A DNA stretch of 64,000 bases from Rhizobium sp. CF122 (GTDB taxonomy: Bacteria > Pseudomonadota > Alphaproteobacteria > Rhizobiales > Rhizobiaceae), in NCBI RefSeq assembly GCF_000282035.1, contig NZ_AKKA01000085.1, forward strand, positions 1 through 64,000, read 5' to 3'. Position numbers and translations under genes: made by a program. Each line of letters opens with the position of its first letter. The first letter of the stretch is position 1. The notes beneath the pieces are model-generated. The model saw nothing but the letters and a program-made list of their open reading frames with translations. It was not told the origin of the DNA and made no database searches. Positions 53,175 through 53,618 of the stretch are shown here, piece after piece.

Positions 53175-53209
53175 GTATTCATAAAGTCATCAGATGACTT
53201 TATGAATAC
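53175..53209. promoter_or_regulatory. Perfect 35-bp palindrome, probable GntR operator
   Basis: Arms of 17 bp, GTATTCATAAAGTCATC (53175-53191) and GATGACTTTATGAATAC (53193-53209), are perfectly complementary around one central base (53192). The centre GTCATCAGATGAC resembles FadR/GntR sites. It ends six bases upstream of the GntR start codon (53169), so it would sit in the promoter or leader. Confidence 0.85.
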
Positions 53210-53250
53210 CTTGAGGCCGTTGCCCTCGTCAATCCTGTGCTGAAAAATGA

Positions 53251-53275
53251 AAAGGGCCGCTCGAGGCGACCCTTT
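53251..53275 (-). terminator. Rho-independent terminator of the 23-codon gene
   Basis: On the minus strand a 10-bp stem (AAAGGGTCGC with GCGGCCCTTT, one G-U pair) encloses the loop CTCGA and is followed by TTTTCATTTTT. It is 57 bases after the small gene's stop and upstream of the GntR promoter. Confidence 0.75.
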
Positions 53276-53332
53276 CCATGAGTTCTGGCCTGTAAATGGC
53301 CGGACCGTCAAAGCGATCCTAGGAAGGTGGGC

Positions 53333-53404
53333 TTAGAGCGAGGGCTGCCTCGCTTTCATCACCACTTCCATGCCTTTTACGAGGTCCGAAATCTCATTAG
53401 ACAT
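53333..53404 (-). CDS. 23-residue peptide gene, function unknown
   Basis: ATG 53404 has a strong ribosome site (GGAAGG, 7-base spacing). The frame runs 23 codons (begins MSNEISDLVKG, ends KARQPSL) to a stop at 53333. It has three acidic and three basic residues and no signal peptide; the central part alternates Val/Met/Leu with charged residues and could form an amphipathic helix. A rho-independent terminator follows. It lies alone between gntR and the pirin gene with 212 bases upstream. No family recognised. Confidence 0.65.
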   Translation of the reverse strand: MSNEISDLVKGMEVVMKARQPSL

Positions 53405-53618
53405 TGGATCACCTTCCTTTCGTTCTGTTGAAGATGGGTAAAAGGTAGGATGATTCGCCGGAGATGCAAGAAAAAACGAGGTGTCAGGTGCTGCGCAGCT
53501 TCCCTGGCAGCGGTGTTTCACTTTACGGTCGCCGACAATACACCAATGTTTACAATGATGTCCTGTATGCTGCCGTAGTGAGCAAACATTGCGGCAGAGG
53601 GCTGTGGATTAAGCCGGC

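Follow-up and report, generated by a model that had tools for sequence, protein, structure and literature searches.

The Caulobacter RNA CC2171 was reportedly described as an sRNA by Landt et al. in 2008. It is already known as an Rfam family without an assigned function, is included in the Rfam 15 table, and a Mesorhizobium RNA-seq entry of 215 nt, MH_s33, was annotated as CC2171 (PMC5596092). A small protein of Sinorhizobium meliloti, SEP1, was described by Hadjeras et al. 2023 (23 aa, pI 4.18, conserved in Rhizobiaceae). In that study it had the highest translation efficiency among 54 unannotated candidates and was seen by Ribo-seq, as a Western signal for a tagged copy and in one spectrum (PMC10117765). 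In the tagged constructs no more than 15 nt preceded the frame, so the native fold lay outside their scope. SEP1 was published as a small protein rather than as an RNA of the CC2171 family. Schrader et al. 2014 reported that two earlier-predicted Caulobacter ncRNAs were translated and that most ncRNAs were located in untranslated intergenic regions (PMC4117421). No paper joining CC2171 with SEP1 was found in a literature search of partial coverage.

A stretch of 64,000 nucleotides of the Rhizobium sp. CF122 genome (hereinafter, the window) was analyzed, and a short reading frame between a pirin-type gene and a gntR-type gene was studied. Sequence comparison demonstrated homology across bacterial orders, a constant core, a near-neutral peptide, conserved helices and a terminator, and neighbours that are not shared. 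We consider it moderately probable that the locus encodes a stand-alone, structured and ribosome-engaging RNA of ~190 nt, which is a homologue of CC2171, adopts two folds and encodes a peptide that is not under selection. Within the literature searched, the following is new: CC2171, MH_s33 and presumably SEP1 belong together, the RNA is spread across orders with the 16S-complementary core as its constant part, the peptide drifts when compared with controls, and a two-fold model can be proposed.

The rhizobial alpha-r14 sRNAs, which we take to be anti-Shine-Dalgarno (anti-SD) sRNAs grouped with BbsR14, carry an anti-SD sequence, like the window RNA. BbsR14 itself is an anti-SD sRNA of Bartonella bacilliformis; this type has two stem-loops with TTCCTCCTAA (PMC7717549), whereas the window RNA has one strand able to pair with its own SD. 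The window RNA as an alpha-r14-type sRNA was rejected: apart from CC2171, no Rfam model matched this stretch below E 0.5, and the predicted fold pairs the anti-SD strand with the SD instead of placing it in a hairpin loop. The rnTrpL/RcsR1 RNA of S. meliloti is also a small RNA with a very short translated frame (PMC7143759, PMC10117765). In contrast to the window RNA, which is free-standing and has a very long SD, it represents the trp leader, with the trpL AUG at its very 5′ end; as RcsR1 is transcribed from the trp leader position, it was rejected as the same RNA. The extended SD of Flavobacterium rpsU resembles the window core in being tied to access of the 16S tail (PMC9976891), but it belongs to the leader of a protein gene in bacteria generally not using SDs.

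Organization of the Locus

All features of the locus are located on the minus strand. The pirin-type gene (54530-53619) lies upstream of the short frame, and the gntR-type gene (53169-52492) lies downstream, behind the terminator. The short frame MSNEISDLVKGMEVVMKARQPSL (53333..53404; ATG 53404-53402, TAA 53335-53333) contains 23 codons and TAA and is preceded by the core ribosome site GAAAGGAAGGTGATCCA (53405..53421), which is complementary to the 16S 3′ tail apart from one additional A. A promoter (CTTGCA 53470-53465, CTACCT 53448-53443) was predicted from an alignment examined by eye, in which CTTG and TAC..TT were constant in the same-genus rows and adjacent bases varied; a generic sigma-70/terminator scan of the locus reported neither a promoter nor a terminator. 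The predicted RNA of ~190 nt (53246..53435) was delimited using the similarity of relatives, the CC2171 model match and the fold, with the 5′ end placed according to the predicted promoter. An alternative in-frame GTG start would give a 62 aa product and was judged not meaningful because it runs through this promoter.

Within the predicted RNA, the 5′ strand of helix H1 (ATGAG, 53393..53397) coincides with nt 8-12 of the short frame, and a hairpin GCGAGG-CAGC-CCTCGC (53338..53353) is located at the end of the frame. Directly after the stop codon lies the internal anti-SD strand ACCTTCCT (53321..53328), predicted to pair with AGGAAGGT (53418-53411) and followed by a small hairpin GGATCG..CGGTCC (53302..53319) seen in the predicted fold. 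The 3′ strand of H1 (CTCAT, 53278..53282) is located directly before the intrinsic terminator GGAAAGGGTCGC-CTCGA-GCGGCCCTTTTCATTTTT (53242..53277), which was recognized from sequence, fold and relatives. The terminator lies ~57 bases past TAA, and its stem is fully paired in the predicted fold; its 8 core pairs were kept in 100% of cells in 36 relatives, and it was present in 225 of 229 homologues.

The initial annotation had described a 24-codon frame with GGAAGG seven bases before ATG, a stop and a terminator, and it was correct in both coordinates and parts. Its view of the frame as separate from the pirin and gntR genes, with its own ribosome site and terminator, was borne out. GGAAGG does lie seven bases from the ATG; as a description of the whole ribosome site it falls short, since the site comprises 16-17 nt.

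A near-perfect palindrome GTATTCATAAAGTCATC-A-GATGACTTTATGAATAC (53175-53209) was found between the terminator and the gntR start. It is kept in nearby relatives and is probably the GntR-family operator.

The proteins flanking 205 homologous loci (up to 410 proteins; the set was limited to frames of 10-40 codons, with ATG or GTG required by the start pattern) formed 226 similarity clusters with at most 36 members, and their strands differed; since the flanking proteins differ, the gene is considered free-standing. This bears on the possibility that the RNA is a cis-acting leader or attenuator of gntR, as the location of gntR downstream on the same strand, behind the terminator, might suggest. 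It was rejected because the downstream gene is not conserved: flanking genes differ among homologues in kind as well as strand, and gntR has the palindrome of its own between the terminator and its start. We regard a leader function as extremely improbable.

Core Ribosome Site

The 16S 3′ end (..GGCTGGATCACCTCCTTTCT..) was read in one same-genus genome and shows the core to be complementary to the small-subunit tail. A search for this tail gave no match in the genome of the window itself and succeeded in 1 of 41 genomes, probably because rRNA is missing or masked in the assemblies; this single tail was used for the duplex energies. The full core pattern is GAAAGGA(A)GGTGATCCA-RTG-TC. In other families its form is GAAAGGAGGTGATCCA-RTG-TC, allowing for some variation, and Rhizobiaceae add one A. 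The computed core:16S-tail duplex has an energy of -26.1 kcal/mol for the window RNA and -29.9 kcal/mol for the common form. Among the 55 long ORFs in the window, with the best start within the first 50 codons taken for each, the strongest ribosome site:tail duplex was -16.5 and the median -11.2 kcal/mol. The core ribosome site is almost the strongest possible.

In the same-genus loci, AAGGAAGGTGATCCA was exact in 50 of 52, and the remaining two (L013 and L024) were one base off. The motif AAAGGA(N)GGTGATCC occurred once in the 6.14-Mb own genome and was found in 43 of 61 genomes, in 42 of them as a single match, the second match in G015 being its 16S gene. A longer core pattern was found in 75 of 398 genomes of a phylum sample, all of them Alphaproteobacteria (75/135 versus 0/263 other Pseudomonadota, a split counted by hand), with one copy per genome except in G111. 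The exact core was present in 70 and absent from 315 of 385 sampled genomes of the class, so many members of the class do not have it. A scan of a named species collection gave at least 119 stretches. Among the 119 listed, 117 open frames of 14-36 codons, one (L168) has 59 codons and one (L103) is cut; four of them (L104, L120, L136 and L205) are labelled only Proteobacteria or Pseudomonadota.

The genome G111 (L076) carries its two cores at C1:805112 and C1:2922049, both of which match the CC2171 model, and it is the only genome with two copies in the phylum and class samples. In L168 (Azospirillum sp. B21) the core is followed by the 59-codon frame, the longest among the 119 listed, with a signal-peptide-like start; perhaps the ribosome site was borrowed, or the RNA has evolved into a protein gene.

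A core that complements the whole tail, outdoes the sites of all 55 long ORFs of the window and is single-copy could belong to an RNA that only binds idle small subunits through the 16S tail, as a decoy or sink for 30S and without pairing of the anti-SD strand in trans. Such an RNA would have to be abundant, and the conserved helices and terminator behind the core exceed what it would need; we consider this explanation unlikely.

Similarity to CC2171 and Distribution

Homologues were sought by DNA similarity, sequence pattern and covariance model. When the whole of Rfam was searched permissively, RF01867 CC2171 scored best (21.8 bits; E 0.0096 for the 361-base stretch searched; model 1-159, window 53429-53253). 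No gathering-level Rfam match was found in the window, the gathering score of CC2171 being 75. No other family in the locus stretch was below E 0.5, with mir-6511 (2.8) and BASRCI337 (0.71) at chance level. The CC2171 model matched at full length all six relatives from other families, which had been found via DNA similarity to the window RNA (E 2.4e-8 to 0.015). It matched three of four same-genus loci at E 0.037 to 0.45, and L057 of the same genus gave no match at E 0.5. All seven named loci, namely those of Alloyangia, Defluviimonas, Porphyrobacter, Bradyrhizobium, Mesorhizobium, Agrobacterium and Sinorhizobium, were matched at E 1.3e-8 to 0.016, below the gathering score. In a class sample, 68 of 289 genomes had a match at E<=0.01 and 9 of 289 exceeded the cut-off; under the stricter filters of this sample the window's own copy was not reported. 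One match under the cut-off came from Deinobacterium chartae, a control outside the Alphaproteobacteria.

Like CC2171, whose model contains CAAC..GAAAGGAGGUGAUCCA-GUG-UCUCAU, the window RNA has the 5′ core, a closing helix behind the start codon (ATGAG/CTCAT) and the terminator; it differs in its score (21.8 versus 75) and in having an additional A in the SD. CC2171 is classified as an sRNA, whereas the core looks like a ribosome site plus start codon. Because the scores are below gathering and the full-length matches run via intermediates, the window RNA is, judged by sequence similarity, a divergent homologue of CC2171 linked through intermediates rather than a formal member of the family.

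BjrC1505 (RF02356) was considered as the same RNA and rejected, because its best match in the own genome (G000:C121:34185-34331) lies outside the window. This match is below the threshold (33.7 bits, cut-off 50). BjrC1505 matches 105 of 121 sampled genomes of the order, and a weak match in L053 was taken as chance.

The DNA search revealed the window RNA in 59 of 60 same-genus genomes, its own included, the exception being the 82% complete assembly G003. A Sinorhizobium query found it in 32/33 and 16/16 genomes of two related genera (Sinorhizobium/Ensifer, 48/49 together); the assembly of the single miss is 70% complete. In Rhizobiaceae sampled evenly, this query had matches in 41 of 199 genomes, several of them in the core only and G594 in the terminator only, which indicates that DNA similarity fades quickly outside these genera. 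Weak matches L059-L061 covered the 3′ part without the ribosome site. The frame had been taken for an orphan of no known family; the RNA occurs in nearly all genomes of these genera, is related to CC2171 and has homologues in many other alphaproteobacterial orders, with the order names of the loci taken in part from record titles. The ribosome site and ATG extend well beyond close strains and are the most conserved part.

Short Frame and Relation to SEP1

All 52 same-genus loci examined, out of 59 with a match and with the window included, had a frame of 23 or 24 codons, so the arrangement is not accidental. The six loci of other families had a frame of 24-31 codons behind the GGAGG form in a search that required ATG, and 30 of 30 CC2171-model loci had a frame in a search that asked for ATG or GTG. 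When any start codon was allowed, 46 of 46 Sinorhizobium/Ensifer loci, out of 48 matched genomes, had an ATG start and a frame of 23 codons. When any NTG or ATN was allowed, 31 of 32 loci (one of them the window) were matched, 28 with ATG and 3 with GTG. Frame lengths cluster by type at 14, 18 and 22-26 codons (14-36 overall), and across orders the peptides share little beyond MS. With respect to the GCAGCC element downstream, the frame keeps one register throughout Rhizobiaceae, and the register is shifted in L051, L193 and L055.

All 46 Sinorhizobium/Ensifer orthologues have 23 residues, and 4 of 46 have a computed pI of 4.18, the published value of SEP1, which is likewise acidic and conserved in Rhizobiaceae. 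From the length, the pI, the conservation and the strongest ribosome site, we infer that SEP1 is the S. meliloti orthologue of the short frame. The orthologues fit SEP1, and the short frame is probably translated. The Caulobacter sRNA family and presumably SEP1 would then be one RNA gene common to much of the class, in which the stretch complementary to the 16S tail varies least.

A plain non-coding, trans-acting sRNA with an incidental ATG would agree with the filing of CC2171 as an sRNA, the conserved fold and the neutral peptide. It is at odds with the ATG or GTG that follows a near-perfect SD at a distance of seven bases in every locus read by a search that did not prescribe it, and with the published SEP1 translation data, if these concern the same frame, as is likely. 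We find this explanation quite unlikely.

Analysis of the Peptide

Selection on the peptide was evaluated as the synonymous fraction among single-base codon differences relative to the neutral expectation, the counts representing related sequences rather than independent events. The first same-genus sets gave 0.27 (neutral 0.27) and 0.33 (0.28). The larger Rhizobiaceae sets gave 0.31 (0.27) and 0.26 (0.29), with variants distributed over codon positions as 16/16/18 and 32/37/35. The values were 0.24 (0.31) for the Rhodobacterales type, 0.21 (0.30) for the Sphingomonadales type, 0.25 (0.30) for the Bradyrhizobium type and 0.18 (0.28) for the Mesorhizobium type, such group names being set by the first residues of the peptide. 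In Sinorhizobium/Ensifer the fraction was a little higher (0.39, neutral 0.29), which counts against drift. As a control, four flanking-gene families showed 0.48-0.95 per 23-codon stretch. Purifying selection on the peptide was thus not found in these sets, the overall range being 0.18-0.39 against a neutral 0.27-0.31.

The third-position bias which the initial annotation proposed as a check is therefore missing in Rhizobiaceae, and its suggestion of a functional regulatory or membrane-active peptide gained no support from a near-neutral sequence; its other suggestion, the coding part of a small RNA, is the one that the data support. A functional micropeptide gene, in which the 23 residues act as a small protein with a regulatory or membrane-associated role and the RNA serves solely as mRNA, would account for the retained start codon and stop, for 23- and 24-codon forms that differ by whole codons, for the slight rise in Sinorhizobium/Ensifer and for the detection of SEP1 by Ribo-seq, tagged Western and one spectrum (PMC10117765). 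It does not account for synonymous fractions that in the other sets are close to the neutral value or lower, far from those of the flanking genes, nor for peptides of 14-36 codons with hardly any shared sequence across orders, and we consider it very unlikely. The drift cautions against inferring a functional small protein just from a Ribo-seq signal, a tagged band and conservation within a family. It appears from these comparisons that the RNA or its ribosome contact, rather than the peptide, is what selection keeps, and the peptide is probably incidental.

RNA Structure

The window RNA (53432-53243) folds with z = -4.74, and none of 200 shuffles was as good. In the consensus fold of 36 Rhizobiaceae RNAs, 97.2% of cells were paired versus 94.4% with partners re-dealt and 35-55% when slid. 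Changes on both sides were found in 9 of 30 pairs; three of the nine (helix 4, GGAAG of the frame with CUUCC) were discounted, because CCTTCC is displaced by one column of the alignment in several rows responsible for the changes. In the hairpin 53338..53353, 4 of 7 pairs changed on both sides and 94% of cells were paired.

Helix H1 connects codons 3-4 with the element that directly precedes the terminator, and its equivalents are CATTGTC/GACAATG in the MSH type and CATGGTT/GACCATG in the Sphingomonadales type. A helix of H1 strength was in place in 82% of 186 distinct homologues, compared with 42% of shuffles and 38% of random partners (235 loci were collapsed to 229, 4 without a terminator were dropped, and the remaining 225 were collapsed to 186). 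The enrichment over shuffles is about two-fold and H1 has 5 bp in the window, which counts against our best explanation.

An anti-SD strand is also present elsewhere, namely CATCTCCTT near the terminator in the Rhodobacterales type and GGATCGCC in the Bradyrhizobium type. The anti-SD helix score exceeded that of shuffles in Rhizobiaceae (20.4 vs 14.2), the Rhodobacterales type (20.6 vs 15.1), the Mesorhizobium type (21.4 vs 14.4), the Bradyrhizobium type (19.5 vs 14.8) and a mixed remaining set (18.0 vs 14.7); it barely exceeded shuffles in the MSH type (16.0 vs 14.5) and did not exceed them in the Sphingomonadales type (15.2 vs 14.8). As the core is invariant, covariation cannot prove the SD pairing.

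The best predicted fold of the window RNA is SD-closed (-76.4 kcal/mol), and with the SD forced open the best fold contains H1 (-69.4 kcal/mol). Since both helices cross, SD closing and H1 must be mutually exclusive or form a pseudoknot. We infer from these models that the RNA has two exclusive folds. If SEP1 corresponds to the short frame, the SD-closed fold cannot dominate in growing cells, given the highest translation efficiency of SEP1 among the candidates.

Proposed Mechanism

In the preferred reading, that of a free-standing, ribosome-engaging RNA, the parts that contact the ribosome and fold the RNA are constant while the peptide drifts, from which we conclude that what counts is ribosome loading or translation as such and not its product. 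The ribosome would load on the long 16S complement and the ATG or GTG and translate the short frame, the product being unselected. In one fold the SD would be paired with the internal anti-SD strand; in the other the SD would be open and H1 would close the RNA just behind the start codon. A docked 30S subunit would compete by its tail with the anti-SD strand and hold the site open, and initiation would melt H1, as its 5′ strand lies in the frame. Docking or translation would in this way determine how the RNA is shaped or how long it lives, and whether the anti-SD strand is exposed or hidden. In Rhizobiaceae, the spacing suggests that a ribosome at the stop codon would cover the anti-SD strand, so that the site would stay open for the next one. 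The output step is the least certain and could be pairing with the ribosome sites of other mRNAs or the tying up of 30S subunits.

A further-reaching possibility, which we consider rather unlikely, is that the RNA acts across the class as a gauge of ribosomes: it would read the supply or state of 30S subunits via the free 16S tail, docking would flip the RNA and free the anti-SD strand to damp other mRNAs, and the peptide would be a by-product. The subunits concerned might be idle, newly matured or without bS21; this idea was suggested by bS21 in E. coli, which would reportedly hinder long SD pairing (PMC13009471).

It was also observed that in most Rhizobiaceae the added A in the core (GGAAGG for GGAGG) accompanies a CCTTCC anti-SD strand. 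The two may represent a paired change at the root of the family.
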